NCBI RefSeq assembly: GCF_040807025.1
Contig: NC_090951.1
Coordinates: 4,278,001-4,342,000, forward strand
Length of the DNA: 64,000 bases
Direction: 5' to 3'
From: Struthio camelus
Lineage: Eukaryota; Chordata; Aves; Struthioniformes; Struthionidae
The notes below the pieces were generated by a model. The model saw nothing but the letters and a program-made list of their open reading frames with translations. It did not search any database and had not been told where the DNA came from. How positions within the stretch are numbered: position 1 is the stretch's first letter; the number at the start of each line of letters is the position of its first letter. Below are positions 13,001-62,990 of this stretch, one piece after another. The position numbers and the translations under genes are program-made.

Positions 13001-13849
13001 AGAATCACAGAACGGTTGAGGTTGGAAAGGACCTCTGGAGATCATCTAGTCCGACCCCTCTGCTCAAGCAGGGTCCTCTAGAGCACATTGCCCAGGATCA
13101 CGTCCAGGCGGGTTTTGACTATCTCCAGCGAAGGAGACTCCACCACCTCTCTGGGCAACGTGCTCCAGTGCTCAGTCACCCTCACAGCAAAGGAGTTTTT
13201 CCTCAGATTCAGATGGAACTTCCTGTGTTTCGGTTTGTGCCCGTTGCCTCTTGTCCTGTCGCTGGGCACCACGCAGAAGAGTCTGGCCCCATCCTCTTGA
13301 CACTCTCCCTTCAGCTATTTATAGACATTGATGAGATCCCCCGTCAGTCTTCTCTTCTCCAGGCTAAACAGGCCCCGCTCCCTCAGCCTTTCCTCATAAG
13401 AGAGATGCTCCAGTCTCCTCATCATCCTTGTAGCCCTCCGCTGGACTCTCTCCAGCAGTGCCATGTCTCTCTTGTCCTGGGGAGCCCACAATTGGACACA
13501 GGACTCCAGGGGAGGCCTCCCCAGGGCTGACCAGAGGGGCAGGATCACCTCCCTCGACCTGCTGGCAACATTCTGCCTAATGCACCCCAGGATCCCATTG
13601 GCCTTCTTGGCCACAAGGGCACGTTGCTGGCTCCTGCTTAACTTGTTGTCCACCAGGACTCCCAGGTCCTGCTCTGCAGAGCTGCTTTCCAGCAGGTCAG
13701 CCCCCAAGCTGTACTGGTGCCTGGGGTTATTCCTCCCTAGGAGCAAGACCCTGCCCTTGCCTTTGTTGAACCTCAGGAGGTTCCTCTCCGCCCAGCTCTC
13801 CAGCCTGTCCAGGTCCCTCTGCATGGCAGCACAGCCTTCTGTGTATTAG
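13001..13849 (-). mobile_element. CR1 LINE, 5'-truncated 3' fragment
   Basis: Read on the minus strand this is the 3' end of a chicken-repeat-1 (CR1) non-LTR retrotransposon. The frame from 13824 encodes the C-terminal part of the CR1 reverse-transcriptase ORF, including the family-typical words [15 protein letters not shown] and [11 protein letters not shown]. The frame is interrupted once, by TAG at 13315-13317. It then continues in the same frame through [12 protein letters not shown] and [16 protein letters not shown] to a natural TAG at 13078-13080. The 3'UTR ends near 13001 with the usual CR1 tail rich in TTCTGTGATTCT-like words. The 5' end is truncated near 13849, as is normal for CR1 insertions. 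Only one nonsense change over about 250 codons suggests a moderately young copy. It cannot transpose. Confidence 0.95.
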
Positions 13850-25600: not shown

Positions 25601-26216
25601 GCCCAGAACCCATGTTTATTTTAAAAAGCAAACTGTATGTACACATCCATATTTGCCTTTTTTTTCCAGAAAAGACTCAAAATAGAAAAGGCTCCAGTAA
25701 AAGGCTGTGATAATCATATGACAGGAGAATTAGCAATTCACCGAGAAGCACATATTTTGTCACTAAAATCCTTTCCCCTAGAAGAGGCATTCCCATATTG
25801 ATTTGCTCAATATTTATCTGTTCTGCACTCTAGTCTGACAAATATTTGTGTGAGCAAATTTCACGCCAAAAGCGGCTCGTCTGTTGTTGGTGACAGAGGA
25901 CTCATTCTTTACATAATGCGACTACATTGCCTAAATAAGACATTCTCCAAAATGGACTGTCCACCAACTCCCAAACCTATAAAGAGAGTCCAAAAATAAA
26001 AAACAACTGAACAAGATGCCATGGCTGGTTTGTGTGTACAAAGTGCTTCTTGCACAACCATTCTTTTTCTAATAATATACTATATTTGTTAATCTAATTA
26101 ACACTTTAAACACAAAATGAATAATATTTCTTTAACTCAAATAAAAGCTGACAACCTGTGCGTTTATATTTCTAATACCTGGGGAGCTTATTCACCTCTT
26201 TTTGCCTGCCATTATT
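25600..26216 (-). other. Inferred 3'UTR of the PEP-synthase-N-domain-like gene
   Basis: This stretch follows the TAA stop on the minus strand and is AT-rich and non-coding. An AATAAA hexamer on the minus strand at 25615-25620 (TTTATT on plus) is the first canonical poly(A) signal I see downstream. It would give a 3'UTR of about 600 bases. The exact end is inferred. Confidence 0.45.
25615..25620 (-). terminator. Candidate poly(A) signal AATAAA
   Basis: Canonical AATAAA on the minus strand, about 600 bases after the stop codon of the ten-exon minus-strand gene. Its use is inferred from position only. Confidence 0.4.
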
Positions 26217-26377
26217 TTACCTGTAGTAAAACTCCACCAAGCCCCAGCCCGGTGTTAACCCGTTGAGCTGGAAATCCGCAATGCACTCGTGAAACACTCC
26301 GCTCCCGGTAAGGCCGTTGTACACCACAGGGCAAGCTTGCTTATCAAGCGTGGCAGAAACATCAAAGCACTTGCCAC
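26217..26377 (-). CDS. PEP-synthase-N-like gene, last coding exon 10
   Basis: 161 bases encoding residues 330-382, then TAA at 26219-26217. It contains GKCFDVSATLD, IADFQLNG and the terminal GWGLVEFYYR. The stop TAA overlaps a sequence that could itself be a donor (CAG/GTAAAA), so a read-on splice form is conceivable. Confidence 0.8.
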
Positions 26378-29300
26378 CTTCGTTAAGAGAAAAAAAGGGA
26401 AGAATGTCTCTGACTTCCAGCAGTATTCAGTCCCCCAAATGCACTAGATCTACTGTTTTTACATATGGCTCCCTTAAACTTTTCTAAAGAGTACTAGTTT
26501 TCCTGACTGCTTTGTAAACGAAATACAATCTTTGATCAACCAGTGTTTTCAAAGCAGCTCACTCTAACTCCTAACATACATTTTGACCCCCTAAAAGTGA
26601 AAATCACACCATTCATCTGGATTAAAAGCAAGAGGCACCACAAAACAAAACCGTAACCCTCCCTCCGATACAGCTGCCTATGGCCAGATCCTGCAACGAA
26701 CAGCGCATGCCCTTGTACTTATTCGCACAAATAGTTTCCCTGATGATAGACACATATGACTGAAATTAAGCACAGGAGGAGAAGATGCATTTAGCCTAAG
26801 AGTCACATGGGAGGATGGAGAAGAAAGAAACAACATAAAGGTGGAAGAACGTAATAGCTGGGATATAAGATACAGTCAAGTGAAATAAATACCAACAAAA
26901 TCACAGTTTGGAAGTACTGCTCATACTCATGACAAAACGCATGATCATGCCTTTCTTAGTTTCACTGAACAGTCTTTCCCCCAGTCTGTAGAAAGCAGCT
27001 GCATGCCGAAAAGCTGAAGGCAGACGTACACAGGCTACCTTCAACTTACCGGCGGTAAAACAGACTCTGTATTCATCTTCGATAACCCCGTTATCAGCCA
27101 TCTGGGCCAGCAAGGCATTGGACCACTCAATCCCAGCCTTCCTCCCATCGGGGAAAAAGACGTAGCCTACAGTGAGGCTGAAGGGGAGAGAAACGGAGCA
27201 CAGCTAAAGTTCAACCTACACTCAGATGGAGCAGCACTCCGGCCTTCCAGAAGAGCTCAGAGTTGAGCACAGGCTTCAGCCGTGGCTGGCAGCAGGAATA
27301 AGAAGAAACGGTTACGCAGGATGCCGTGAGCTCCAGGCAGGGGAAGCCATGCATGCAGGGGAGAGGATGAGGTTTGCAGGAAGGAGGATTGTGAAATGGG
27401 CAGAAGACGGGCAGGACAGAAAAGGAAACTTCCCTTGAAGTTTGCAAGACAACCAAGTAGCTGTGTCCCTGGGGGACTCTTTGGGTTCAGCTTTTCCACC
27501 AAAACACGGTATTAGGCCTGGCAACCATCTGAATGCGCTTTGCAATCTTCTGATTTAAGATATGAGGCACTGCGGCAGTAATCTGCTGATTTCGGTCTTT
27601 AACGCCTTTTTCCAGCTTCTCACATGCATGTTTGGAAAGGCAAAAATACATCACAAAGCATGCTCCCACTGCACAGGGGGGCATCCTGCAGAGAAACCCC
27701 GAAGCACTCATATAACAGCGCCACACTGAGATTTCAGCTGCAGCCACACTCACATGGCTGAGTCTTATCCCGCTTCCTCCACTATGGAGGGAGACACATT
27801 CTCAAAGAGTTGCAAGTGTCCAGTTTGTACCTCTAAATCATATGGACTCTCAGCCATGCAGCTGTACCAGCCAAATAGTAATGGCACGTAAATGCAGTAA
27901 TTGAAAGTAAAAGCTGGCCCTGTGACCAACTGCAAATGGAAAACTGGGCAGAGGGAGTGGAGAGCATGAGAAAGAGCGGTGTGGACGGACACCGGGCTAT
28001 GCAGGTCTAAGCAAGAATGCACGTACAGTTGTCCTGCAGAGCAACTTCTCTCATCTTTAAGACGTGTGTAAACAGCAGTGCAGACTTCCTTGGTTACTTA
28101 CTTGGTTGCGGTTGCTGGCATATTAATAACTGTTAAATGTGCAGCAGTCCCGTCCTGTAAGAGAGCAATAGAGAAAGAACTAAGTCTAGTTTGTGCAGAC
28201 GAATACTACTGGTTGTATACTGACTTCAAGAGGACACTAGGTACACCTCAGATTATGTCACCTGTTATTAATTTATACTTTGAAACCTTCTCTATACATC
28301 TTACATGAAGATCTGGCTGTAAATGCGGATCCAAGAATTTAAACTAGGCACATTAAATATAAATTAAGGACATTAAGGACAATAGAAAGACCACAGCAAG
28401 CATATGTAAGAGGAGAAGGGAACTAATAAATGCAGAGACTTCAGCTAGTCATGTTCAAAACCGCCAGAAAAGGCCTGAGCAAGCCGATCAAAGTTGGCCC
28501 TGCTTTGACTAGAGGTGTCTTCTAACCTGTATTACATGATGTCTGAGAGCAGCCCACAGGAAAAATGTTAAATAAGAAGTAACTGGAATCCATGCGTTTG
28601 TTCATTACTCCTCCACCCTTAAGCCTGAATACCTTCATGCTCCATTTATTTGAGCTGCTTTGAGGCAAATATAAGTCTACGTTGTGACATTATACATGTA
28701 AAGACACTCAGGGTGTGAGGACTCCAAACTTCAGTCAGTGATTATCTTTAATTCCTCCTTAACAAACACTCAAATGGCTTTTAATTAGGGAGGGGGGGAG
28801 ACATAGCATTCTGAGCAGCAGGCATTCTGAGTCCTGAGTCCTGAGTAACTACAAAGAAAGGGGAGAAGTTATTATCTGATGATACACGCCACAGTGCACA
28901 AGCACCGTCTTATTAAAAGCTAGCCTGCGTATGTTAAATCACAGCAGCTCCTGGATTTAGGCGTACGTGGGATTTTCCAAGGTGTGTTTTTATGTTGACC
29001 CATATATACCCGGGAAAGCTTTTTTATTCTGCCTTAATTCCTGAAATGCTGCCTTTAACAAACAGTTTAGACTTCCTTATGCCTTTTCATAAGCATCTGC
29101 CAGGTTGTGTGCTGGCAGGTAAGGCCGGGATTCAGGATGTCCCCAGGCTACGAGCAGCCACAGAGCAGATGCTCCTCCAGCACAGCCACCGCAGCAAAGC
29201 AAGAGAATTAAAGCTGAGTACAGGCAGGCGTATTTGCAGACTGCTGTCATGAGGGCTTAGGATGCTGTCGGGAATATCAGACTCCCGGCTACCAGGAATC

Positions 29301-32300
29301 AGCACTGCATCAACTCCGTTGAGCTCTGAGTATCTGCAGCAGCTGAGAATCTGTCCTGTAAAGCTACTGATCTAATTTTTCTAAAAAAGCAAAAATAAAT
29401 GGTTTCAAGTTAATCAGCACAATTTTTTGGTTCAACCAATGTAACAAAATTCTCAGCTACTATTCACATGGCTCTACGCTATTGCAAATTGCTTCCAGCA
29501 TTTATGTGCACTACTGGTGGCACCAGTGAGCACCTCTGATTGCACACCGTGGTTCCCCTCAGTGCACTATTGCTGGATATTCAAGTATGACTGACAAGTT
29601 TAGACATGCTTGCAATTTCATCGTTAAGTGGCGTAATGGCATGTTAATACCTACGTCAAAGCGTGCCAAAATCATGACATAACGGTAAATCTCAGACCAG
29701 TTCCGGATACCTGCAAAAGACAAGAACAAAATCGCCAAATTTGAAGGTCACCATTGCTGGACAATAGGAAATAATGGTAACAGACATTAACTCTGGCTAA
29801 AGAAATTCTCTAGTAGTTGATAACGTGCTAAGCATATACCTGCCCCAAACAACAGTAATGGAACTGTTTTTATCAGCAGAAGGAAATAAGATAGACGTGA
29901 ATAAGATGGATCGTTCCCCTTTTTCCAGTAGTTTAGGGCCTAACGGAAAGGGAAGGAGAGCAGCTCATCAAGTCAGACTGACGGCAGGTTTATATGCTTG
30001 CCCAAACTACGGAAATGTCACGAAACATTTTAACAGCTACAAGTGTATCAGTGCCTTTGTAGCAGCTCATGAGACACGAGCGGACCAAATGCTCTCCATC
30101 ACGAACCCACAGTCCTATCACTAACAGCAACGGTGTCACTATGTAGTTTGCCAGGTGAGTGAACAGTTTCTAGCGCTGTTACCGTAAGAGTGGCTCCGAA
30201 CACCTTTGAGGGAAAGTTTTGTTTTCTCATGATTTTCTATTTCAATTTCTCCAACAGACTGGCCCCACTGCTCATGACGAAAATGTTCCCTTAGTCTGGA
30301 GGAAAGAAAAAAGAAAGAGTTGATCAACCCGGGCAAAATCAACGAGGCTGCTGTTCATACTGTCCCCAGTGCCAACTTGACGGACTTAAATCCCCAAATG
30401 AAGCAAAGATTTCAGAGCATCTGGATCATGGTTATACTAGAGTCTACAGATTATCAAACACATTTCTAAATTTCCAAATTATTGCTGCATAATGCTTATA
30501 AGACATCTAGGAAGAAAACAACAGCAAGTTCCCACCTTGAGAGACTACAGAAAATGCCCTCTGTTTCACAGAAATGAAATACCACCCAACAGTTGCTGCT
30601 CTACATCAACAAAGACAACACACTATCTGATGTACACGTTTTTTTTCCCTGTGTTTACAGTTCTCCAAAGCCTTCGTAGTAGTTTAAACACCTACTTTTG
30701 CCCTCCCTTCACATTCAACCCTTCCCTTAGACATACCAACACCACTGACTGTAGAAGAGGCCTAAGTCAGGTTGCTAAACAGTGAAGAGAGACTGAAAAT
30801 GAAATATTCCTAATCCTCAAGGTTTTACAGCCCAAGACTGCAGCCTTTGAGTGGGGATGTCCCTCCACCCCAGTGGTAGGAAGACCCCGCTCATGCTCAG
30901 GAGCCTCCTTAGAGGTCGCCAAGAGTGTTGTGGTGACCTAACGCAGGAGATACCTGAAAGGAGCCTTGTCCTTTATTTGCTCACTTTAAATTAAACTCAA
31001 TCTTCTAAAATCACCTGTAACAACACAGGACAGATCCTGAAGAGGTCTGTAGAAAAATTACTTTTACCCCCAGCAGAGTTTAATGTTGTCTCTCACTTTT
31101 TGACCCTTCGGAAGAACTCGATGTTCCATGGTTCCTCGGCAAGAGCACGTACAAATGTGCGGGGGTGACTGTCGACGCTAAAGTTAAAGACTTCCGTGAA
31201 GTTCTCCCAACTAGCAAAAGAGGGGTAAAAATAAAAGCCGTTATCAGCTTCCGGTTTGTACCAGGCCAAGTCATGCACTTGTTACACTTACAACAGCAAC
31301 CATCGCATTTTATCACGCTTGGAAACGTGTGATTTTTGTCATTTTTTAAAATGTTACCAGTTTTCAAGAAATCAATCAAAAGGAAACAGAGAACAGCAAC
31401 AACACCTGCATAACAGCACAGCGAGGGTCAACAGACTGCTTAGGAAGGGAAGTTGGATAGGCAGAGCCGTGAGCCAAAGCAGCGCTGCTTTCTCTCGGGT
31501 AGTCTGCTTGGAGGTACATAGGCAGCATCACACCAGAAGCACTCTGCTACTTGGACAGCAAATCATTTTTTATGAGACAAATAGAGACCATAAAGCAGGT
31601 AGTGTTTGCACTGCAGGGAAACAACAGCAGAAAGTGGAGGCAGAGGAAAGGTCTGCGTTTGTGCATTTTAGTGCAAAGTATCTTTGTGCACATGACCCTT
31701 TGAAAGCAGTAACTGTGTGGATAAATGTAGTAAAACTGCAAATATATATTCTGAACAGAGAACGTGTCTTTATGTGTGTTAGCTAAAGCTACTAAAAAGC
31801 TACCAAAAGCTTGTGTGCTTTTGCCTAGTCAGATGAGCAGAGCTCCTGCACAAGTATACGCCAGAATCATTCCTAACCTATATTTGTTTGTTACTTGGGC
31901 TTTATTTCTACTCCTAAAGATGAAATGTAGGAAACAGGCCAGACAGCGGCACCACTGTATATGGAGACCACAGCATTTTCTTACAGAAGCTCTAAAATAC
32001 TTTTAAAGCAGCTTGCCCCCCACCAAAATATACCAGAAACTGCGATCTCAGCTGTGACGACTTCCTAAATAACAAACACTGAGGTCCTGATTATGTCACA
32101 AGTTTGGTTTCATCTACACATTCTTCAACAAATGAACCAAATCTTTAACTAGGAACTTACTACACATCCCAGAACAAAGTGAAAAAGCTCTTACAGGAGA
32201 GAGAATTTAACTGGTACAAGTTCGCCTTCCTCTTTGCTCCACTGCTGCCGATAGGGTCCTTTTCTGTAAGACAAAGCACCGTAATTTTGCATTATTCCTA

Positions 32301-35300
32301 AACCAATAGCAAAAAGCATCTTGCACATTTGGAAGTGGATATAACAGGAGACACCGCAGAAGAATGAAGCTGCTATGTGCTAAGGTAGAATAATAACACA
32401 ATCACAGCCCCACACTGGCTGCAGGAATTACCAGCTGTGACTGTTACCTTATAGCTTTTGCTTCACGTTGGTGAGATGCATTTCCAGGTAGGGTTCAAAA
32501 AGCCATAGTCTGAAGTCTAAGTTAGACTGCTGAGCTTAAACACAGATAAATGAAACTACAGAGTGCTGCAGTACCTGAGCAGTCCCTCGAAGCTTATTTT
32601 CCAGTGGTTCTGGGGCTCTAAGTATTCAATGGTGAGCCCTCCACCATGCCAAAGCTCTTCAGATTCATCGCGCACCATCATATTTGGATGCTGCGGGTGC
32701 TACGGAGACATTTCAGGAAAACATTTGTTTAATGCAGCTGTAGGGAGGAAATGAGGGTGAATTCCCACTCCGACGGCCTGTTGGAGGAGGAACGTTTGAT
32801 TCAGTTGGCTCTTAGGTTCTACCAGCTTTAGGGAAACCACAGAATAGAGAGGAAAAATTGCATCTAAAACACCTGAGTTCTTGGACAACATGTTTCAGAT
32901 CGTACAGCCGAATTATTTGTGTGAAAGGCTGCAGCCTTTAAGAGGTTAGCCCAGCCAAGCAGATGCAGGGCTCTAGGGGTTTAAAGTTATTTTTAGATTG
33001 AATTTGATGAAACTCTAAAATGAACTAAATTTCTAGTGGCCACAAGCTCCCCAGAGTCTTCAGCTACGCTTTGGAAATAAGTCTTGTTTGCTAAACTTTC
33101 TGAAAGAGAGCTTATACCTGCTGCTGTAAGTAAGTATCTAAGAAGGTCCTGACCTTGACTGGCAGTTCTTAAATAACTCAGCCAAACAGAAACATTGCTG
33201 TACTACTAAATATGAATAGAAAACCAAACAGTGCACCTCAGTCTTCTGTTTTCTGGCTTTCTACAAATAGGATGCCTCCTGCTTTTTTGTGGTCATGGCT
33301 ACTTAGCAAACTAATCTGCTAATGTAAAGGTAGTTAGTTGAATGCAAAGAGATTTATGCCAGATCTTTCTTCCTCCTTTACAATGTAGTCACCTATTGAC
33401 AAAAAGAAAATCCACAGGCAAAGCATATTATTAATATTCCTCTTTTTTTAGTAAGAATGAAGTGGATGAATATATAACTCCATAAAGCTTTCTTTTCTCT
33501 TAGAAAAGAAACCCACAATGACTTTCACACAATGACAATTCCACAATGACTTTTATAGCATCCATTAATGAAAAAAAAAAAAAAGAAAAATCAACCCTAA
33601 CGATACAACATAACTTATTAACCCCATGCTGTATGTTAACACAAAGACTATAAGCTCAGATTCTTCACTGGTACTCAGAAACATTTTTCTTGCCTTCATG
33701 TCTATTGCTCCTTGGTTTAATGAATCTTTTTAGATGAGAACAGGTCTCACGGCATATTTGGCTTCCAGCGATCGCTGCTACTATCACTGGAAGAGAGCTA
33801 CAGAGAGATGGTGGATCCAAGGATGCATTCATTATTTTAAGAAGGAAGAAGAAACCAAGCATTGCTTGTAACTGTCTTTATTCAGAGCTCTGATGTTCTA
33901 CTGTTAATGCAGTGAAGATGCAGAGCACTTCTGCTTGGGATCATAATATAAATTCAAGCTAGGTGTTGAGCACCGTCTTGAGTGTCACCCCACAGCCCCA
34001 GCCGCCTTCTAGTGCGCCACTTACTTCAAACTCTCCTATCCCAGCCACTCTCAGGAAAAGCCACATTTCGCAGATGCCACCGGGACGTCTTGCAAGACGA
34101 GCAATCACAAAAGTCTTGTTGGTCTCTGCAAACCCCGTGAAGTAAACTGAATCCAGTGCCTAGGGAGAAGGAAGCAGAGCTGAGCTCCAGCCGGAGGCAG
34201 GAAGGGAGGGGACAAGGCGAGGAGTTTCCTGTTTTCCACAGGCTCCTTCTCTAGAACCAAATTTTACCTTCACTCTGTATTTAGTACCATTCCCACCAGC
34301 CAACAGAGATATAGATATGTAGGACATACATATGTGGGAAACATAGAATTAAAAAGGAAAGAGAAAGTGAAAGAAAGATTCCTAGGAAACCTAGCACAGT
34401 ACTCTTGTGACTAGCAGCAGAGCTGGCGTTGGGACAGTTGGCTCTCAAGTCAACTCAAGTCTCAAACTATTAGGCACAGAAGTCCATAGCTGCAAATTCA
34501 GGTGTGTATCTTCACATAATTGTGCAGAACTCACTCAAAGTGAACTTTACAAGTTGGAATATGGAAATTAAGACTTATGTATCCATGTTCGGGCATGGAT
34601 AAAGTTCTGCTTCAGAAAGATTATCCATAGTGAAATGCCCCAAAACAATACTGTGAGATGACTACGGTCTGAATGCACACAGACTACTGGGCGCAGAGTG
34701 AGCCCGCTGGACTGCCAAAGCAAAAATTCAGAGATATCATTTCTGAAAGGTTTTTCTACGTCCTTTTTAGACCTTTCTTGTAAGTGGTGTTTCACTGCTC
34801 CTGCTTTGGCGAGGAGAGGGGAAACCACACATCCCTTGGCTATAACTCGAACCACCCTGGAAGTCTGATTTGGAACATGAAGCCATTTCACCCCCCTCAA
34901 ATCTGATTGAGATGGGCAAAACACTTCAAGAAGTTCCTGGGAATTTTTCTTTTTCTTTTCTTTTTTTTTTTTTTTAGGGGAAACAGAGGCCCCAACACAT
35001 TCAGTAAAAGCGAGGACTTCAGGAGTCCTAGAAGTTTATAGGAAATGTTAGTAAGTGGTTGATTTTTCACAAAAAAAAAGTGGCTTAGGACTAAAAATCT
35101 CTACTAAAAATCTACAAGCTCAGTCTTGATGAAGCAACAAAGACTGAGGGAAACCACAGCCCATCAATCAGTCTTTCTGCTTCCTGCCAAATGCACCAAA
35201 TAATATATAGCAAAGCCCACCCAAACCTCACTATTAGGGGCAGTGAGATTGTTGTATGAACAAAGGCAAAGTACAAGTTGTAGATAATGGGTTTACTATT

Positions 35301-36319
35301 TATTAAGCAGACAAGTACTCCCGGAAAACTAGATTATATTCACCAAGTGTGCTGAAATAAAAGCCTTGGGTGCCTCATAGCATGTCTTTTTTTTTTTTCC
35401 CACCACAGCCAGCTGGCCTGATTAGAGATAATCCTTCTCCCTGCAAGGGACACCCATAGTGACACCCCCACCCTGTCTCCCCAGCGGGATGCAAGGCGCT
35501 GGGGTGCTGAGGATGGGAGCCCCAAGGAGTGCTAGGCACCAGGATAACGAGGAAGCAGGTCCTTGAAGGATGTGGAGTGCTGGGATGTGGGTCCCTGGAG
35601 ATGTGTGTCCCTGCGGGGGGCTACAGGTCCCCACGGGATGTGGATTCTGGGTGGATGCAGTGTGGCACACCAGGATGAGGGTCTCAGGGATGGGGGTTCC
35701 CACGGGATGCGGATCCCCAGGGAATGCAAGTCCCTGGGGGATATAGCTCCTGGGATGGAGGTCTTGGAGGATGCACATCTGGGGGAGGGGGGTGTCTCGG
35801 GGGAATATGGGTCCTGGAGATGGGGCTCCTGGGGGCGAGGGTGGGTCCAGGAGGACTCAGAGGATTTGGTCCTGGGGGAACGGGGGTCCTGGGGATCGGG
35901 GCCCTGGGAGGGAGACCGTCCTGGACGAAATGTGGGTCCTGGGGATGGGGAGTGCGAGCCTGTGGGTCCTGGGGGGATGAGGGCTGTGGGTTGGGGGGGA
36001 CAGGGGTGGCAGGGGATGGGTCCCTAGGGTAGTGGGGTCTGGGGGATCGGGGTTATGGGGATGGGGGTGCCTGGGGAGGGGTCCCTGGGGGAGTGGGGTC
36101 CGGTAGCACGGGGGGGCCACTCACGTGGGGGTCGGAGCGGAGCGTGCGCGGCCGCCGGGGCTCCGCGGAGCCGCCGCCCGCCCGCTGCCGCCAGCCGCCG
36201 TGGCCGAGGAGCAGGAGGCAGCCCAGGGCCCAGCGCTTCAGCGGCGCCGCCGCCCACCGCGCCCCCAGCAGCGCCGCCGCCGCCGCCGCCAGCGCCGCCG
36301 CCAGCGCCAGCGCCAGCAT
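26217..36319 (-). CDS. PEP-synthase N-terminal-domain-like membrane protein (ten exons)
   Basis: Ten minus-strand exons join in phase to a complete 382-codon frame: 36125-36319, 34025-34159, 32575-32699, 32195-32263, 31097-31210, 30183-30295, 29655-29710, 28102-28154, 27050-27177 and 26217-26377. All nine introns have GT..AG ends. The first ATG in the frame (36319) was chosen. Residues 2-20 are almost pure Ala/Leu and 31-38 are hydrophobic, suggesting a signal anchor. The body contains VYFTGF (70-75), ARLARR, WKISFEGLLR (143-152), the FRHEQWGQ block (218-225) and GVRSHSYGIRNW (244-255). It ends in GWGLVEFYYR. By memory this order matches the N-terminal region of arthropod 'putative phosphoenolpyruvate synthase' proteins. 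No ATP-grasp, swivelling-histidine or PEP-utilising domain is encoded within 26 kb downstream, so PEP-synthase activity should not be assumed. Biochemical role unknown. The gene model is strong; the family name is moderate. Confidence 0.85.
27050..27177 (-). CDS. PEP-synthase-N-like gene, coding exon 9
   Basis: 128 bases encoding residues 287-329, with GYVFFPDGR and the acidic EDEYRVCF. Acceptor CTTCAG, donor GTAAGT. Confidence 0.85.
28102..28154 (-). CDS. PEP-synthase-N-like gene, coding exon 8
   Basis: 53 bases encoding residues 270-286, DGTAAHLTVINMPATAT, matching the DGT turn expected after the arginine/histidine motif. Acceptor TTACAG, donor GTAAGT. Confidence 0.85.
29655..29710 (-). 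CDS. PEP-synthase-N-like gene, coding exon 7
   Basis: 56 bases encoding residues 251-269. It completes GVRSHSYGIRNW and continues into IYRYVMILARFD. Acceptor TTTTGCAG, donor GTAGGT. Confidence 0.85.
30183..30295 (-). CDS. PEP-synthase-N-like gene, coding exon 6
   Basis: 113 bases encoding residues 213-250, with FRHEQWGQSVGEIEIE and the first half of the GVRSHSYG motif. Acceptor TCCAG follows a clear pyrimidine tract; donor GTAACA. Confidence 0.9.
31097..31210 (-). CDS. PEP-synthase-N-like gene, coding exon 5
   Basis: 114 bases encoding residues 175-212, including WENFTEVFNFS and RALAEEPWN. Acceptor GCTAG, donor GTGAGA (31091-31096). Confidence 0.85.
32195..32263 (-). CDS. PEP-synthase-N-like gene, coding exon 4
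   Basis: 69 bases, split codons at both ends. It encodes residues 152-174, with KGPYRQQW and LVPVKFS. Acceptor TTACAG, donor GTAAGA. Confidence 0.85.
32575..32699 (-). CDS. PEP-synthase-N-like gene, coding exon 3
   Basis: 125 bases, ending phase 2. It encodes residues 111-151, including GGGLTIEYLEP and WKISFEGLL. Donor GTACTG is weaker than the others but leaves the frame intact. Confidence 0.85.
33514..33550. repeat. Three copies of the word CACAATGAC
   Basis: The nine-base word occurs at 33514-33522, 33528-33536 and 33542-33550, evenly spaced at 14 bases, inside intron 2 of the minus-strand gene. Significance unknown. Confidence 0.7.
34025..34159 (-). CDS. PEP-synthase-N-like gene, coding exon 2
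   Basis: 45 codons, phase 0 to 0, acceptor TCCCTAG, donor GTAAGT (34019-34024). It encodes residues 66-110, beginning ALDSVYFTGF, with a basic ARLARR word followed by EMWLFLRV. This is the best-preserved family landmark near the N-terminus. Confidence 0.85.
34160..36124 (-). other. Intron 1 of the PEP-synthase-N-like gene
   Basis: GT..AG intron between the CpG-island exon and the first body exon. The half next to exon 1 is a G-rich minisatellite. The rest is AT-rich with pyrimidine runs at 34949-34975 and 35387-35398. Confidence 0.75.
35560..36115. repeat. Degenerate G-rich minisatellite
   Basis: About 550 bases are built from irregular variants of a GGGATG(T/G)GGGTCCTGGGG-like word on the plus strand, so the pre-mRNA of the minus-strand gene is C-rich here. 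Runs of three to six G recur every few bases, giving high G-quadruplex potential on the plus strand. The plus-strand frames stay open for up to 154 codons only because the repeat lacks stop codons; they are not genes. Purity increases toward 36115, next to the exon 1 donor. Confidence 0.85.
36125..36319 (-). CDS. PEP-synthase-N-like gene, coding exon 1
   Basis: 65 codons, phase 0, from ATG 36319-36317 to donor GTGAGT (36119-36124). It encodes the Ala/Leu-rich membrane or signal segment and an Arg/Pro-rich linker ending SDPH. It is GC-rich and lies inside the CpG island. Confidence 0.8.
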
Positions 36320-36329
36320 CGCGCCGGGC

Positions 36330-36725
36330 TGCGCGGGGCTGCGGGGCTCGGCGCTGCGCGGGGCTGCGGTGCTCGGCGCCGCGCGGAGCTCGGCGCTGCG
36401 CGGTGCTCGGCGGTGCGCGATGCTGCGGTGCTCGGCGCTGCGCGGAGCTCGGCGGTGCGCGATGCTGCGGTGCTCGGCGCTGCGCGGTGCTGCGGTGCTG
36501 CGGTGCTCGGCGCCGCGCGGAGCTCGGCGGTGCGCGATGCTGCGGTGCTCGGCGCTGCGCGGAGCTCGGCGGTGCGCGATGCGCGATGCTGCGGTGCTCG
36601 GCGCTGCGCGGTGCTGCGGTGCTCGGCGCCGCGCGGAGCTCGGCGCTGCGCGGTGCGCGATGCTGCGGTGCTCGGCGCCGCGCGGAGCTCGGCGGTGCGC
36701 GATGCTGCGGTGCTCGGCGCTGAGC
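36330..36725. repeat. GC-rich minisatellite in promoter/5'UTR
   Basis: About 400 bases of tandem copies based on GATGCTGCGGTGCTCGGCGC followed by TGCGCGGAGCTCGGCGGTGCGC (period about 42). Shorter and longer variants arise by duplication of the TGCTGCGG and GCGCGATGC sub-words. Clean units start near 36419 and 36461. The array ends about 10 bases upstream of the chosen start codon of the minus-strand gene. It lacks stop codons in essentially all six frames, which yields spurious frames of 220-300 codons. Copy number is likely variable or collapsed in assemblies. Confidence 0.9.
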
Positions 36726-36840
36726 ACCGCCGCCCACCCCTGCGTCCGCCTCCGCCCGCTCCCGTCGCCGCCAAACCCCGCCTCGAGGCCGCTTCCCAGA
36801 AGCCCGGTTTTGGCGGCTGGCTGAGCTCATTTCCGTGAGG

Positions 36841-50114: not shown

Positions 50115-50885
50115 AGCCTTAGAAGGGTTTTCATGAAATTAATTATTTTTTTTCCTTTGAAAATCTGATTCGTGTAATCCATTGCCATGCTAATTTAGCC
50201 GCTGCCATTTGCTTCCCTTAAGTCTGGTCTGATCTGAGACCGTTTTGTCAGTTGTCCAATATATTTTTGTAACGGGCTTTTTTCCAAGACAAAAGCACTT
50301 TTGTCAACAAATTTAGCTGTTTTCTAACATGCTCTGTTTTTTTTTTGTGAACAATTAACAGGAACAGGTTTTTTTTTTTTTTTCCTCATTCTTTTTTTCT
50401 TTTGCTGTTCACTGGTTTCCTGAAGCAGTATGAAAAGACAGCAGCCTGGTGCTTTAGTTTGCTAGTTTCTGAGACATAAGCTGTAATTTAATGAAGGCTT
50501 TGCTATTTTATTTTGAGATAAAAGGAGGAGACTGGTTTTTTAACAAAAGCAGAATAATGATTTACAGGCATCGGCAAGGTGGAAGTGAAACCGCTCCTAA
50601 ATCTCTTGGTCGAACATTAAAGTCGCGTGACCAAAAATGAAGTTATGGTATCGTAATGCTCAGTAAACAGTTCACAGATTTGTTGATGAAACTTTGTAAA
50701 TGGTTATCTTTTGGTTACAGAAATATTTCAGCTTTATGTAATCATAGAGCAGCTTTTGATCAAAAAAAGTTAATTCGTTTTGAACCTGGCTATGTTTCCT
50801 CTTATTAAAATGACAGCAGCTGTATTTCAGGCTTCTTTATGCATAATAATGATATCTGATTTCTGCAGGGCAAGTCCAGAAAACC

Positions 50886-51191
50886 ATGCAGTCATCAGGG
50901 CACAGATTCCGTGATGTTGAGCACCACCCGCTTCTTGCTGAAAATGACAGCTACGATTCCTCTTCCTCAGAGGCCGACATGGCAGAAAGGGTTTGGTTCA
51001 TCCGAGATGGCTGTGGTATGGTCTGTGCTATAATGACATGGCTTCTGGTTGTCTATGCAGACTTCGTAGTGACTTTTGTCATGTTGCTGCCTTCCAAAGA
51101 CTTTTGGTACTCTGTGATCAACGGTGTTCTCTTTAACTGCTTGGCAGTGCTAGCTTTGTCATCTCATCTGAGAACTATGCTAACTGATCCA
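50886..51191 (+). CDS. ZDHHC7: ZDHHC7 coding exon 1 (gene exon 2)
   Basis: 102 codons, from ATG 50886 to donor GTAAGT. The exon itself starts at 50869 after TTCTGCAG, leaving 17 bases of 5'UTR. It encodes the cytosolic N-terminus and the first two membrane spans, ending LRTMLTDP. Confidence 0.98.
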
Positions 51192-54100
51192 GTAAGTATG
51201 CAGTTGTTCCTTGACGTTGCATTGTTCTGTCATGTAACTCAGTCAGCTGCAGAGAAATTTGAAGATGTGGTGCCTGTCCCTTCCTGATAGGACAAGTTGT
51301 ATTAGTTGTACATCCCTCAAACTGGAGGGACTGTATCTATGCTTTTCCTGTTCTGTTAATGAACCATAAATGAGCTTTCACTTGAGGAGCAGGCAGTGTA
51401 AAATGAATTATAAGGGAGAGGAAGGCTACTGAGAAACAGAGTTTTTGTTGAATATTAACCTAGGGTCTGAGGAAGCTACCAAAGTGTTAGTCCTTTCTGT
51501 CCTGTATTTTCTTGCTGCTCTTCCTGGTAACGTTTTCAAAGCTTAATAAAATTTGTAGTTTCATCCTGTTGTATTATTTGAAATACGTCTTCTATATTAT
51601 GAAATGTGAAAGAATTTTCAGAGGTAGACATGCTGGAAAGTCTCATTCACATACTGTGATACCAAGTAACAAGGACTACATCGTAAGTTATTGCGTTTAC
51701 ATATATGGAGTCAATGGGAAGTGAGACTTAAGCTGAACTAGCATGCAGTTGGAACAGGGTAGATGTGAGAGGTCTTAAACGGACTCATGTCTTTGGACTA
51801 TTACTTCTTCTGCTTAAGACTTCAAGAGATGAAATTGTTTATTTTCTACTAAAATCTATCCCCCTTTTTTAGGGAAGAAATCTGGAGAGAGAGGGAGGAG
51901 GAAAAAGTCAATTTTCTCTACTTTTGAGACAGTAACAGTATATCTAAAAGTTATGGGAGTGTTCCGAATAAACACCAGGGTGCGGTAGTTAATGGTTTGC
52001 AAGATCTTTGGTTCGCTTCTCAGGCCGCACCCGGTGATGAAACGTTATGACTTCTGCAGGCCGTGACAGTTATGAAAGTGAATAGTTTAAGGATAGATTG
52101 CTTAAAAATATGTACTGGTAAAATAGTGTGTCTTTCTAGACCCAGGTGATTGTTTATGGAAAAACATGAATTTGAGATGAATCACTACCTTTTTTCTTTG
52201 CTCCCCTCCTTCTGACTCCCTGAATGGAAGGCAAGACTATGTGTTATAAAGATTGAAGGTAAAAGGAATAAAGTGCCTCAAAGCACATGAATTATAACAT
52301 GCTATCATAAGTATAAAAACAGATTGTCCATTGAAAGGAATTGGCAGTAGTGTGAGATTATTTCCCTAAATGTTTAATAAAGCATATTTTTATCAGCAAA
52401 ATGGTAAAGGCATGGCCTGAAGGCGTGGACCTATTCCTTAGTGACAGGTGAATAGGTGAATTCATGAGTTGTGTTGTATAAGCATAAATTTATCTGGAAC
52501 TGGATAAATTTGTGCTCATAGGAGTTCTCTCTGTCTTTGAGGTAGTTCGTGATGCCTACACTAAAGCAGTTTCCTGACTTAAATGAGAACACTCATACTG
52601 CAGAAAACACTCCAGCGGTGCAGCGTGAGTGTTTGAGAAGCACTCTTTGAGCCTGTACCTATTCACAGGCCAGCTGGCTCAAGTTTGAAGCACTGCTTAG
52701 CCAGAGAGCTTTGTTTTGGTGCACAAGAGTTCATCTGGGGCAAAACTTGGACTGTGTCTCAGGCAACACGAATCCCAGGTTGTTATTCCAGGCCGTAGGC
52801 AACAAAAACTTTCCGCTTAGGTAAAGAGGTGTTTTGCAATTAAATGTGAAATGTCTGCCGGTTAGTTAATTCTGTCCCGAAAACTTCCTTAAGGTGTCTG
52901 TGTAACGTGAGGATGTTGCCATTGGCTTTTATTCGTCAAGAAGTAATTACAGAATGTTGCAGATGACTTGAGCCAACCTGGCGAAAGATATTCCTGTGTG
53001 AAATAATACCGACTCCTGCAGGAGTTAGTACAGAAAGGCCATTGCACTGTCATTTTGCATCCCAGTTTATTTCACAATGACTTGCTGTCGCAAACAAGCC
53101 TTTAGCTATATAAACAGACAGAGTGACAATGGTAGTTTCCATTATTTTCTTCTTACCATCCAAAGTTAGATTCTGATCTTGCAAGGCTATAGATTAATAT
53201 TGCTATTGGAAGAAGCAATCCTGCTTATTCCTGTCCTTTCATCACCTTCCTCCTTATATCAGCACAGCTGTTTGTGCAGCTCTGTGGTGAGCAGCTCAGA
53301 ACTAATCAGCTAAAAAATAACCTCTTTTTTTCCTGCTGAATTATTTTTCTTCTGGATCAGTTCCTTTGGCTGTTCACCATCTAGCTATACAAACTTGCAC
53401 GGTAGCAGAAGGGAACACTGGGCGTAGAACGAAGAAGCTGATGGTGAGAAAGCAGTGGTTGTTCGTGCCAACGGTGTCCGAGCTACAAACTTAAGTGTAA
53501 AGGAAAAACGGGTGACTCACGATTGTAGAAAAGTTGTGTACGTAGCAGGGGCTAAATCTTGGATTCGGAGAGTTCAAAATAAACATCCTTCAAGTAGTTT
53601 ACTCTGCTGAATTAACTTTTGTGGATGGTTTGACCTAACAGTTAATGTATGCCACTGTAAAGAAAGCATGTCTCTGTCAGCAGTGCTTGCTCAGAGTAAC
53701 CTGTAAGCAAATATTCTACCCATAGTGCTCACATCTGCATGTGAAGATGTGTATTCCTTTGTTTTATGTGTGCTGGTGACTGCAGGTCCTATCAGAATTA
53801 TGTTAATACTTGGCCATAGATGAGTCTTGCTGAAGTGAAACAATTTGAGATCAGCCAGAGGTAATTTATTCACCTGGTGGTTCTGGCTTATGGCAGACTA
53901 GCTTTAAGTAAATTAACTTATTTCAGCAATTATACTGCGATTATGTGCTTTTAAACACTCTCATATCGTTTAAAAAGCTTTCTGTCTTTTAACTGAAATG
54001 ATTTCAGGGGGCTGTGCCCAAAGGAAATGCCACTAAGGAATACATGGATAATTTGCAACTGAAACCAGGAGAAGTGATCTACAAATGTCCAAAGTGCTGT

Positions 54101-57100
54101 AGTATCAAACCTGAACGTGCACACCATTGCAGGTACGCCGTAATCGTCTTTAAAGCAATTGTGTGTATTGAATCTTGGAGTAATGTTCCTGATATTTGTG
54201 TGTTAAATTTTTTTCAACCACTTTCTTACTGTATCCAATAAACTTTCAAGTTCATGTATTGCAGGATAGTTTGTATATGTAATATACTACAGCCAAAAAT
54301 GAATGTAGGTCGGGGAAAGAAGCAAGAGAGTCAAGAGTTTTTAAAATAATCTTATTCTGGTGTGGTAATTCTTTTTTGATCTGTGACCTTTTCCGGTGCA
54401 TCATTCTAATTAGTGTGCCTCACTTCTGATAATGCAGGGCAAAGGGAAAAATCTCAAGGAACTTTCTGACAGAAGCCAGTGTAAGAAATGACTTCTGCAA
54501 TCTTAAATTTAGAAAGTAGAGATGTATTTTAAATTACCACTTTAGTTTGTAGTCTTCCTGTCTTCATCAGATTTCATTGGAAATGGTGTGTGAATTGGTT
54601 GCTTATTTTTCCCAAGCTGTATGCGTAATCAGTTAAATGCACCTCTGTTTACTGATGATTCATTTTAGTAAGGAAAGAAGTAATGTTAATTTGAACTTAG
54701 CATGTTATGTAAAAGGTAGCGAATCTATCCTTTCTTTAATTAGTTCTCGGCCTTTTGAGTTTTCAGACACTGTGGATGCGTTTGTCATGTTTATTATGTG
54801 ATAATTGAAGATAGATATGCCTGTATAATTAGAACTTACATAAATATGTTAATGATTCTGGTGGCTCTTTCTAGGTGTGAGGAGTGATATGCATTGAGAT
54901 GCATGGCAATATTAAATTGTAAGCCTCTGAGTTGGTGCCCCTTAAAAGAAGAGTGGAGGTTTTGTCAGGACTCTGAAACCATTCTGCAAATTTGTGGTTT
55001 CTAAATTAAATGTCTTGGTGTTTGTCACTAATCTGTGTGAAAATTATGACTGAGTTATTTCCATTACAATTACTCTGCCTTGGGGCTGAAGTCTTGTTTT
55101 TATCTGAGATGTGAGTGGGTTTTGTATCTGGAGTGTGAAGGGAAAAGTTCCATATATAGATAGTCAAGTATAGAATTATCTTCAGCTAGTTTATCTGGGT
55201 CGTAGATTAGCTGTTGCACAAATGCAGATAGCAGGTCTGGCTTTATGTGCAGCAAGCGTGGTTCTGGCTGGCTTTGGTAGTTCAGAGCAGGCTGTGTGAC
55301 CATGGTGTGCTTGCAGGGCAGGCTCAGGTGTGGAGCGATACAGCAGCTTTCTTGTGGCAGAATATAAGCTGTTACACTCTGGGGATTCAAGACAGCTTTG
55401 TGCAGCCTTGGCACTGTGCGCGTGGGATATGGGGAAAGGACACCCCAGAGGCTCTGCTCTGTGCGGGTTGGATCTTGCTAGTTTTCTCATCTCAGATTCA
55501 GGCTGGCTCCTGCAGAGACTTTGCAGGTATCTTTCCAAAGCGTTTCCCACATCTGAAATAAAGACATCTTATGTTGAGGTCTGCATCTGAGCAAAGAAGG
55601 TGGAGTACTGGAGAGCCTGGAGCTCCTGCAACTGTGCCGCTCTGCGTAGGCAGGGTTTACCCCTTAGACCTGGAGCTGACAACAGCCTAGGCTTCAGGCA
55701 GGCCTTGCAGAGTTACCTGTGTACATCTGGGACGTCATCCCCAGCAGGTACTGTGTTATCTAGGATGTTCCAGCAGCCTGTGATCCCAGATAGGGCAGCG
55801 TTCATCAGAAAGTTATTATTTCTTCAGGGAGGAGGGATCATCTAGTTAGGAACTTCAAATATGCTGTTTATAGCAAGAGATCACGAGACTTCCCTTGTTA
55901 AAGCAGAACAAGAAGGGTAGTGTCTGCAATGAAGGAAATCTGCAATGCTTTCAGAGGGTTTGTTTGTCGCTATCCCAGGGTTTAGGGATCTGACTTGGTA
56001 GGTAAATACTCTTCTATGCCTTGATAAAATGAACGGCCAAGTTCCACATAGGTGACAGAGATACATTCTGATGCTTAAGACAGCACGTAACTGGCTTCGC
56101 AAGATACCTAAATGGTAAGTCTGGAAGTGTGTGTGCCTAGCCTTTTGCAGCCTGCTCCCATGATGTTCTTGGCAGTAGGCTATCTGGCTTAATGGCCTTT
56201 TTTTGTAACTGTTACTCATACCATATATGCTGCTACTAGCTGCGCTTAACTTTCCTTGTGTAAAACAAAGGATGGTTTCTTTGTAATTTTTTGAATGTTG
56301 ACTCTTGAATTTACCTGCATGGACAGGAAATGGACTGGAAATCAGCTGCCAGCATCTGATTCTTTGCCATAGATTTGGCATTGCAGAAGTGTACCGAAGA
56401 GAAGAAATGTTTATTCGATTATGCTGCCAGCTTTTTAGTGGCTTACAAAGCCATTCCAAGAGCATTAAGAGGATGGTCTAGTCCCAAGCAGTCAAAGTGG
56501 CAATTTGCTGATAGAATAGGCTTGAAAATGAAAACTGAAGTTGGTTCCTGTTGTGAAATAGTTGCACTCAAAGCCACAGTGCATGTTTTGAGTAGTAAAT
56601 TATTAACAGAAGAGGCTCTTATGATGCGATTATGAAAATTGTTGTGCAACACTGCAAAAGAAGTTCTTTTGAGGAAGAAAAGTAGTTTTATAATGCACGT
56701 TAGTGGTGGGAAAAAACAACAAGAAATCTTTATTTACAGCTAAGATATCTGGCTTCAGAGAAATACATTAAATTCAGTTTTTCCTGCGAAGTTAACGTTT
56801 TCAAAACAAGGAGGAGACTTATCTTAAGTGAATGTTATATCATTTTCACGAACTGCTGTTATTTCTAACCGATCTGGAGTTGCTGTGTTTGTATATGAGA
56901 ACTGTTGTGAAGAATCACGTCACTGAGATGTTCTCGTTGGTCTGCCTGTGAATGCTGTTCTCCAAACCAATTTCTCAATTGTTTTCTTTTTTTTTAATTG
57001 TCTTTGAAATATAGTACTTAGGCCATTAGCTGTGTCTTTTGGAACATCAGCTTTGGCATTCGGAGGTGAAGCTGCACCTTTAGTTCCCTGGATATATTCA

Positions 57101-60100
57101 GCAGCAGCAGCAGCAGCAGCCCCACGTTGGAGAAGTCCTTGCTTTGCGCACAGCTGCTCACGCTCACTTGCCATCCTGCTCCTGCCTCTTGTGTAGGTGG
57201 GCGCGTTCATGTAACTGCACCGGGAAATGACCCAGGCTCCAGCTAATGGCCTGATTTCCCGAAACTGTTCTTGCACAAGCATCTGTGCTGCAGGGACAAG
57301 GGAGGGAAGAGAACACGAGTGGCTGGGGTACGGAGAAGGCAGCGCTGCTTTTTCAGCATCGTTGCCAGATTGCTGGCTGGAAGGGTTCGTGGAAGCGTGG
57401 TGTTGGATTAGAAATGGAAAAGGCAGGGTTCCAGGCAGCTCATGGCTTGGAGAGCTCCCAGTGGGCTTGCGAGAGAAAAACGATTGAGGAAAAGTGTGTC
57501 CTGCCCACCTCACGCCCTTCGGTGTTTGGCTTGATTGAATCTGATTTGACTCAGTACTTGCTTCGGTTTTCTTTATGGAGTGACAGTATGAATACCGTGT
57601 TACATTAAGAGGCATGAATATGGTGACTATAGTTAACCCACCTTTCCCACAGAGCTCAAAAGTCAGTGAGAGGCTGAACTTCTTGGCAAGCCAAGAAGGG
57701 AAAAAGTGTTTTTTGAAGAGTCTTCTGAACACCTTGTCTTGAATCGTGCTTGTCTCATCTGCACTAGAGAATGGTTACAGTGTTTGGTCATGGTGGTATT
57801 ATGTTTTTTACATGTAACTGGTGCTATTTAAAAAGTAATTTGCCTCAGAAGATGAGTCATCCTTAATATCCACAACATAAGAAGCAGTGGGAATATAGAG
57901 ACTGGGTTGTGATAGCTCAGGACAACGGAAGCTTCTAAGGAGCTGTGGGAGGTCTGGGTTCCTCTCACGCTACCCATACAGGAGTATGTTCTGCTTCTTG
58001 CTGAATTGCAGCATGCATATATAGCTGCTTCTAGGCATAACGTAGTTTTTAAGAACTGATTTTTTTTTTCTCCCCACCTTTCTTAACTCTAGAGACAGTT
58101 TTGCTTCATGCCTTGTCATTGAACCCCCCAGGAATCATATATAAATAAGCATACATTAAAGGATTTTGAATAATAGTACCTAAATATGTGAGGCTGATTT
58201 GGCTCTGTATCTGCTGAAATGAAAATGCTTAGCCGTTTGGATATTCTGCGGGAAAGTTTGAAACGCTTTGTGTGTGGCTACTTTGAGTGCAAAACTAGCA
58301 AAATGAAATATAAGCATCATTTGACCTATTCAACACAACACGTTGCAACTGCTCTGTTCCTCTTGTATAACTGTTCTTGTTTGGCTGCAGATGGACATGA
58401 ATACAAGAGAAATGAGCCTTCCAGGGCTGCACGGCCTAGCAACTGTAAAAAAGAGTTACTGAAATATTTGCCTTTTCTTTCTGGCAATTAGCTTGACTAA
58501 AATCTATGCAGAAACGAAGCCTTTAGTTTAGAACAAGCAAAGAACAGTAATGTTTAACAGCATTCACTAACAAGCAGGCAAAGAGTTTGCGCTGCTTATA
58601 GTTAGACTTTTTTTTCTTTTGGTTTGTTTTATTTTGAGGAAGTGAGGTGTGGCATTGTAAGCTATTCTCTGATTGAGATTTTGATTGCACATGTTCAGAA
58701 CATTGAGAGATGTATGGCTAGTTAAAACTGCCTCAAGAGTGAATATTTCACTCTTGATAAGACTACTTTTTCTGACTTGTAAACCAAGTTTGCCTTGAAA
58801 GTTTGTAAACATGAAATAATTACTTTGTCTTAAAAAAAAAATTTCTCCAAAAGGGAAGTTCTTATTTTTATAATCTTTCATGAGCTTCTGCTCATTCAGT
58901 GCCATAAGCGTCTAAAACAAGTTACTAGATGTACCTAATTCTGTGTTTAGTTATGCAATGATCCTCTTCCAGGAATATGTCAGTACTAACTTTCTTGTGG
59001 AGTGTCTTATCTATATGGTCAGATTTATAATAGGCAGAAGCTGGGACGTAAGTTCGTAAATGACTTCTTTAAAGAAGTGCAAATACAATGTTAGTAAAGT
59101 CACTGTTGTACGGTGCAGGAATCGGCTCTTTTCATGATGAACATTAGCTTTTGGCTACTGGGTATTCTCATTTTTACATTAAAACGTGTGCAGTATTATT
59201 TTGCTACGAAAGTCTCTCTTTTCCTTATCTTTAGTATTTGCAAGCGATGTATTCGAAAGATGGATCACCACTGCCCATGGGTGAATAATTGCGTGGGGGA
59301 GAAAAATCAGAGATTTTTCGTTCTGTTTACGGTAAGTGCAAATCAACAGCAGCTTGATCCTAGTATGAGTCTACCTTGATTACAGCAATTTTGGTCATGT
59401 TTATTAGTGAGTAATGGCTTATGGTCACAACCGCTTCCTCCCTCCCTCCCCTCATTCTACCCAAGATATTCTCCGTGCAGGAAGATATTTCTACCTGTAT
59501 TCTACCAACATACCCGTATTAATCAGTGTTTTGTAAAGGGCTGTTATCTTAATTCACCTAACTTTACTGTGTTTTGGTAACCGTTGGTGAAATTATGGTG
59601 TGATTTAGGGAGCTAATCTTTACACTTGCATAGTTGCCCAAGTTTGAATCTAAAAAGGTGATTAGAATTTATTTTTACATCGTTGTATTAAATTAAAAAT
59701 GGAAATAGGAAAATACATTCGCTGTACAGTGGTGAAGGCTGGCTGTAAGGAATGTCTGGTGTACTGCCTGGCAACGGTCAAAAGTAAGCACTCTCTCTTA
59801 TTTCCAGATGTATATAGCCCTAATTTCAGCTCATGCGCTCATACTGTGTGGGTTTCAGTTTTTCTCCTGTGTCCGAGGGCAGTGGACTGGTAAGCACATA
59901 CTTAACTTTCACTGGCATAATCAAGCAGACATTAAAGGAAAGTCAGGGCGTTCCACTTTTTTGGACCCCATGTAAGAAATACTGGACTTTGCTCTTTTTA
60001 AAGTGAGGTCTTGAAAATCTTTCTGTACCTGTTTGCCAATCAGTCCAGCTAGCTTAGATGAGTTGTGTTTTTAAGTGTTGTAAAATCTTCCGTCTCTCTC

Positions 60101-62475: not shown

Positions 62476-62990
62476 GTTTAATTATGCTGGAACTTGCAAG
62501 AATACTATATAATATTTATTTGGGGCCAGAAAGGCTATCTACATATAATCTGTGACCAGGTGAAACTGTTACCAGACATTTGCTTGTAGCAAGCAGAGTT
62601 TCGTATGTTTGTCACAGACATCTCATTAACTTTCGGAGACACAAACTGGATCTGTAATGGTCTTAAAAACGAGATGACAAAGGAGAAGCGCGTGGTCACA
62701 CTAGAGAAGCCAAATGTTGTCATGCTACTGTAATTTATTTTATGAGATTAATTATGCATTTTTGTTAAACCCTTTTTATTTGGTAAATGTTTGGGGAGAT
62801 ACCTGTGTGTTTTTATAAAAAAAACCTATGTACTTAGGTGCAGTTGTCAATCATAAGGAAGAGCGTTATGGTGAAAGTTGATCTCAAATGAGACCCAGCC
62901 TTCTAAATCCAGTTTTCAGGGAATAGCGGTTTGTTCAGTTTTAGTTTATATTTCAACTTGTCCTAATAAACGGAGCTGTAGTCTTGTGTC
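62476..62990 (+). other. ZDHHC7: ZDHHC7 3'UTR (inferred end)
   Basis: Non-coding sequence after the TGA. AATAAA at 62965-62970 would place cleavage near 62985-62990. A longer 3'UTR using later signals cannot be excluded. Confidence 0.6.
62965..62970 (+). terminator. ZDHHC7: Candidate ZDHHC7 poly(A) signal AATAAA
   Basis: A canonical hexamer 490 bases past the stop codon on the sense strand. Its use is inferred. Confidence 0.55.

Follow-up and report, generated by a model that had tools for sequence, protein, structure and literature searches.

What does a ten-exon gene on the minus strand of an ostrich contig encode, and what could its product do? The locus lies in a window of 64,000 nucleotides of Struthio camelus DNA, the whole stretch that was analysed. 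It had been read from its letters as an intact bird gene for a membrane-anchored, stand-alone domain resembling the N-terminal part of PEP synthase, possibly an undescribed vertebrate family with unknown chemistry.

Rebuilding the gene from its splice sites gave 382 amino acids and a TAA stop from ten minus-strand exons (36319-26217), with nine introns, all GT-AG, and every exon phase joining. This is exactly the in-phase, multi-exon gene of 382 residues that the sequence-only reading had described and, judged by its sequence, the gene is intact. A nine-exon model of 362 amino acids, without the exon at 28154-28102, was replaced by this ten-exon model.

Exon 1 (36125..36319) contains the start codon, which is the first ATG in its own open frame, and encodes residues 1-65 with the hydrophobic N-terminus. 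It lies within a GC-rich stretch (GC 0.746 at 36-37 kb) and was placed by its GT donor, phase 0 and these surroundings only, with no homology support. A GC-rich tandem repeat (36266-36744; a reference copy of 170 nt matches in 17 overlapping registers) was observed around and upstream of the start codon, imperfect G-rich repeats occupy 35568-36113 in intron 1, and GC content is high again at 41-42 kb.

The other exons were compared with a family profile of 64 prokaryotic rows, which was built without the vertebrate protein. Exon 2 (34025..34159; ALDSVYFTGF...), which carries a Ser kept in 64/64 relatives, is supported by the profile and by a match of its single frame, as are exon 3 (32575..32699; ...WKISFEGLLR) and exon 7 (29655..29710; GIRNWSEIYRYVM...). 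Exons 4 (32195..32263; KGPYRQQWSKEE...), 5 (31097..31210; WENFTEVFNF...) and 9 (27050..27177; LTVGYVFFPDG...) fall within the profile alignment, and so does exon 8 (28102..28154; DGTAAHLTVINMPATAT), which is also defined by its splice sites. The signature motif is encoded in exon 6 (30183..30295; HEQWGQ...GVRSHSY), with Ser247 in place of Asp, and exon 10 (26217..26377) encodes the end of the DUF7064 region and the stop codon. All ten exons are on the minus strand, as is a candidate polyadenylation signal at 25615..25620, the first AATAAA or ATTAAA downstream of the stop.

When the family profile was run against every stop-to-stop frame of 15 or more amino acids in the window (2801 frames), the five top single-frame matches were exons 6, 3, 2, 10 and 7, all on the correct strand and following the profile in the order of the gene. 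Only the best of these was significant (E 0.0039; 0.74 to 2.2 for the other four exons), and the sixth match was unrelated (E 2.5). A search of the bird's own genome gave ten matches with E below 1, which were the ten exons themselves, and the next had E 4.46; at the sensitivity of this search the gene is single-copy.

Elsewhere in the window, frames of a DHHC palmitoyltransferase occupy 50853-59400 on the plus strand, with motifs at 54.1 and 59.3 kb. We take this gene to be ZDHHC7, and it and the ten-exon gene probably lie head to head. The domain was not reported in the one frame scanned of 50853-64000, and the DHHC exon lies in another frame. A 176-residue open frame at 13318-13845 on the minus strand is presumably the reverse-transcriptase end of a CR1 LINE.

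To which family does the protein belong? The sequence-only reading had suggested that the family might be undescribed and had proposed a Pfam search. That search matched DUF7064 (PF23212) above the Pfam cut-off (31.6 bits against 24.7, residues 255-379), and the family is already described as Pfam DUF7065/DUF7064. For DUF7065 (PF23213), Pfam returned no row for the 382-residue protein at E up to 10. Its closest relatives in bacteria straddle the cut-off of 27 for that domain, with 24.3 bits for the Bacteroidetes protein L049, 21.7 for L133 and 27.3 for the Spirochaeta protein L090, and L049 and L133 gave no DUF7064 row at E 0.01. The NCBIfam model Rv3169_fam (NF053593) scored 22.4 bits, far below its cut-off of 150. 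Against the 64-row prokaryotic profile, the vertebrate protein scored 98.3 bits over residues 57-379 (E 5.8e-29 in a set of 2001), whereas the best of 2000 shuffled proteins reached 6.0 bits with the same profile. By these matches, the vertebrate protein is a full-length relative of the DUF7065-DUF7064 proteins.

Relatives were collected by scanning prokaryotic genomes for the motif G-x-R-[DNSG]-H-x-x-G-x-R-[DN]-W, which gave at least 119 loci with at least 122 motif-bearing open reading frames (ORFs). With the vertebrate protein, blastp matched L049 at E 6.8e-19 and L090 at E 1.8e-14, and a genome search matched L133, of the same phylum as L090, at E 1.8e-19. In a tree of 66 rows the vertebrate protein clustered with these three proteins with support of 100/99, on a tree that includes the long branches of both the vertebrate protein and L133, a kind of row against which the tree program cautions. 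With the vertebrate protein as query and E up to 0.001, 1 of 395 genomes matched in one phylum and 2 of 392 in a second, the centre genome being counted in each. Plasmids gave no match by tblastn at E up to 1, and viral contigs gave none with a pattern that required the Asp (RDHS...). The Sterolibacteriaceae genome G789 (locus L086) had 13 DUF7064 matches, the most among the 16 genomes searched; its order presumably fits a sterol degrader. Our literature searches found no paper mentioning 'DUF7064' and none joining 'putative phosphoenolpyruvate synthase' with 'vertebrate', and the titles of the 'putative phosphoenolpyruvate synthase' literature revealed no animal gene of this kind.

The structural relatives of the family were identified in the PDB with the 64-row profile, for which 25-phosphosteroid lyase was the best solved relative (9fzn and the phosphate-bound 9g2i, E 1.4e-19; also 9g4c). 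This lyase was not found with the vertebrate protein alone, for which weak single-sequence matches to acid-sensing channels (E 0.21 and worse) were rejected, and L049 alone gave no PDB match. The predicted model of L049 had a mean pLDDT of 86.3, and Foldseek placed 25-phosphosteroid lyase first among its matches (E 8.1e-12, TM 0.59, rmsd 5.1, 14% identity), followed by AttH (2ich), Phm7, CghA and Fsa2, some of these entries being titled pericyclases. With L049 as proxy, the body of the vertebrate protein is predicted to share the fold of 25-phosphosteroid lyase, AttH and the pericyclases.

To call the chemistry of the family unknown was therefore too strong, since a relative, 25-phosphosteroid lyase, has solved structures. 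Passages of PMC7411048, PMC8449060 and PMC11061730 describe cholesterol side-chain oxidation in Sterolibacterium through a 25-phospho-steroid made by a kinase, followed by elimination of the phosphate. The lyase of that step is termed unknown or putative in passages of PMC8449060 and PMC11061730, and we equate it with the solved protein on the basis of PDB entry names. The kinase also phosphorylates 25-hydroxyvitamin D3, according to a passage of PMC8449060.

How does such a protein come to be linked with PEP synthase? The sequence-only reading had likened its landmarks to the N-terminal region of the arthropod 'putative PEP synthase', in which the domain would be fused to a PEP-synthase-like part. 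This putative link gains independent support from gene adjacency in archaea and bacteria, so that the PEP-synthase label of the sequence-only reading reflects a real association and can be explained, but is not exact as a description of the domain. The same reading was correct that no PEP-synthase catalytic domain is present, as Pfam found neither PPDK_N nor PEP-utilizers in the 382-residue protein. A PEP-synthase-like ORF occurs in 7 of the at least 119 prokaryotic loci. In six (L052, L056, L073, L090, L094 and L119), from archaea, a Spirochaeta and a Nevskia, the dikinase directly adjoins the family gene, the stop-to-stop frames overlapping by up to 13 nt or being separated by at most 239 nt; five pairs are on the same strand and one (L090) is divergent. 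At the seventh locus (L066) the ORF is 1962 nt away. PPDK_N was recognised by Pfam in every one of the six neighbours. Five of them also have the mobile PEP-utilizers domain, and the remaining one, L073, is truncated where its locus ends. No neighbour gave a PEP-utilizers_C row at E 0.01. Rifampicin phosphotransferase, an alcohol-phosphorylating enzyme, likewise combines PPDK_N and PEP-utilizers without PEP-utilizers_C. A PPDK_N dikinase gene together with a DUF7065-DUF7064 gene is thus a candidate operon for ATP-dependent dehydration. A tick midgut transcript is named 'Phosphoenolpyruvate synthase' in a passage of PMC5099782.

A second type of phosphotransferase accompanies the same family. 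A kinase-like half was found in 45 of the at least 122 family ORFs (phmmer against the kinase half of L034, E up to 1e-5), many of them from close Mycobacterium relatives and so not independent. Among the matches listed, 9 further loci have the kinase match in a separate frame, in some cases overlapping the family frame, and one of these also has a kinase match 2308 nt from a second family ORF. Among the fused ORFs checked in Pfam, L034 and L102 matched APH and EcKL, and L042 and L060, which are also long, gave no kinase row. Since two unrelated phosphotransferases accompany one barrel, the kinase half and the dikinase adjacency together fit, and suggest, a pair of activities that would phosphorylate an alcohol and then eliminate the phosphate. 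In the bird, the scanned frames of the window revealed no phosphotransferase partner, and a genome search without exon joining detected neither PPDK_N nor PEP-utilizers. These genome negatives are weak, because the same kind of search with DUF7064 missed even this intron-split gene.

We then asked whether the vertebrate protein retains the residues of a lyase. The Asp of the G-x-R-D lyase motif corresponds to Ser247 (codon AGC), and the motif GVRSHSYGIRNW, already quoted in the sequence-only reading, carries Ser at the position that is Asp in the examined relatives. The DNA motif pattern permitted Asp, Asn, Ser or Gly at this site, and Asp was present in 122/122 motif ORFs among the matches listed. 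In a second set of 34 loci, found mainly by DUF7064, which starts C-terminal to the motif, or with the vertebrate protein as query, and including some loci already in the motif set, Asp was kept in 34/34. These include 15/15 off-motif relatives, some of which vary at the His, the Trp or the second Asp (for example RDKSWG, RDISAG, RDRSWG), with this Asp constant; the three closest relatives also carry it. In the stretches shown, the sole difference between 9g4c and 9fzn/9g2i is a change from Asp to Asn (GSR[D/N]RSWGVR), the pattern that a mutant of the active site would show. A role for the Asp is deduced from its constancy and from this crystallised Asn variant.

Most of the conserved signature is retained, with both motif Arg residues and the motif His present. 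The vertebrate protein keeps 8 of the 9 columns that are invariant in the 64 rows, which says less than it seems because the search pattern itself had fixed six of the nine. At the free invariant columns (L049 numbering, here and in the next sentence), the protein retains Ser65 and Gly208 but not Asp226, the Asp of the motif. Glu201 and Glu351 are also kept, and His54 is changed to Pro, Trp242 to Met and Trp240 to Tyr, at sites where the top residue occurs in 61, 61 and 55 of the 64 rows, respectively. Without the Asp, the canonical elimination has probably been lost or changed. The one acidic residue common to all examined relatives is lost, and therefore binding of a greasy molecule or an altered chemistry is probable.

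The N-terminus is hydrophobic, as had been noted (Kyte-Doolittle mean 2.32 over residues 1-19), and is probably membrane-anchoring; by eye, L090 also has a hydrophobic N-terminal stretch. Five N-glycosylation sequons are present, compared with 1.17 in shuffles, of which 75 in 20000 had as many. This excess is a hint that the domain may face the ER lumen, whereas an Arg-rich stretch behind the hydrophobic part suggests a cytosolic C-terminus and speaks against the lumen.

In prokaryotes, the relatives would most likely perform the second half of an ATP-driven dehydration. An APH/EcKL-like kinase, or a dikinase with PPDK_N and the mobile domain, would phosphorylate the alcohol of a hydrophobic molecule, and the barrel of the relatives would then expel the phosphate to leave an alkene. 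In the vertebrate protein, the hydrophobic ligand would sit in the barrel, kept near the membrane by the N-terminus, and the conserved Arg residues would be suited to a phosphate group. As Ser247 replaces an Asp that is constant elsewhere and the searches revealed no partner, we propose a non-canonical, ligand-binding role: with a probability of roughly one half, the protein acts at a membrane as a carrier, sensor or changed enzyme, with a bound ligand that resembles a sterol or isoprenoid and may be phosphorylated, and has lost the canonical elimination. Ligand class, loss of activity and membrane location are all what we infer, the ligand class from relatives whose identity over their length is about 25% or lower.

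The strongest competitor, possible and yet clearly less probable, is that the protein is still an active phosphate lyase, fed by a kinase and acting on a phosphorylated sterol or isoprenoid alcohol. Ser at position 247 may leave activity, with another residue or the leaving phosphate serving as base; the candidates are His248, Asp269, Asp270 or the phosphate. Such an enzyme would be consistent with the retained motif Arg and His residues, with Ser65, Gly208, Glu201 and Glu351, which stand in columns free of the search pattern, and with the use of the same fold by pericyclases and AttH. However, the Asp is present in every motif ORF among the matches listed and in all off-motif relatives, the three closest included, and no dikinase partner was detected in the genome, where exons were not joined in the search. 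A bolder form, which we regard as doubtful, is that a vertebrate lyase half with Ser acts on an endogenous lipid, a phosphorylated sterol, secosteroid or isoprenoid, and is the first animal enzyme of the phosphosteroid-lyase type. If so, the arthropod 'putative PEP synthases' would be one-chain ATP-dependent dehydratases and not PEP synthases.

It is improbable that the ten exons are one end of a longer gene, in which exon 10 would splice at CAG|GTAAAA to PEP-synthase-like exons downstream. The TAA does overlap this good donor (26215-26223, minus strand), and in prokaryotes the family is genuinely linked to dikinases. Against this, three minus-strand frames over 15 kb downstream contained no Pfam family at E up to 0.1, and a dikinase profile found nothing in the window (best E 3.5), in a test that recovered two of six control pieces of forty residues at E below 1e-6 and a third at E 0.03, the other three scoring 0.8 or worse. 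PPDK_N and PEP-utilizers were likewise not detected in the genome, and the stop lies 4 residues past a conserved Glu, close to the family end. The TAA inside a donor sequence may be a remnant of a longer ancestral gene. A pseudogene or untranscribed relic, to which the loss of the constant Asp might point, is less probable still, given ten open exons, nine GT-AG introns with intact phases, homology to prokaryotic proteins across residues 57-379, a single copy at the search sensitivity and a start in a GC-rich stretch.

The preferred reading of a membrane-associated binder of a hydrophobic ligand, together with its competitor of an active lyase, gives an uncharacterised vertebrate gene a testable chemistry, namely the binding of a phosphorylated hydrophobic alcohol or the removal of its phosphate by elimination, and makes Ser247 a concrete residue for testing. 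For prokaryotes, it links two unrelated phosphotransferase types to one partner with the lyase fold, and suggests that some so-called PEP synthases may be alcohol kinases paired with a phosphate lyase.

Among known systems, the vertebrate protein is like the DUF7065-DUF7064 and Rv3169_fam proteins in its DUF7064 match above cut-off and its profile match over residues 57-379, and differs from them in having no DUF7065 row and no fused kinase. PEP-synthase-like dikinases adjoin prokaryotic genes of the family in six loci, whereas none of their domains was found in the vertebrate protein or in the scanned parts of the window. AttH (2ich), Phm7, CghA and Fsa2, the next-best fold matches of the L049 model, are alike at the level of the fold only, with 6-11% identity in rows with E up to 0.001. 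The closest comparison is with 25-phosphosteroid lyase, which is homologous by the family profile and shares G-x-R-x-x-S-[WY]-G-x-R with the vertebrate protein, but has Asp and Arg where the vertebrate protein has Ser247 and His248.
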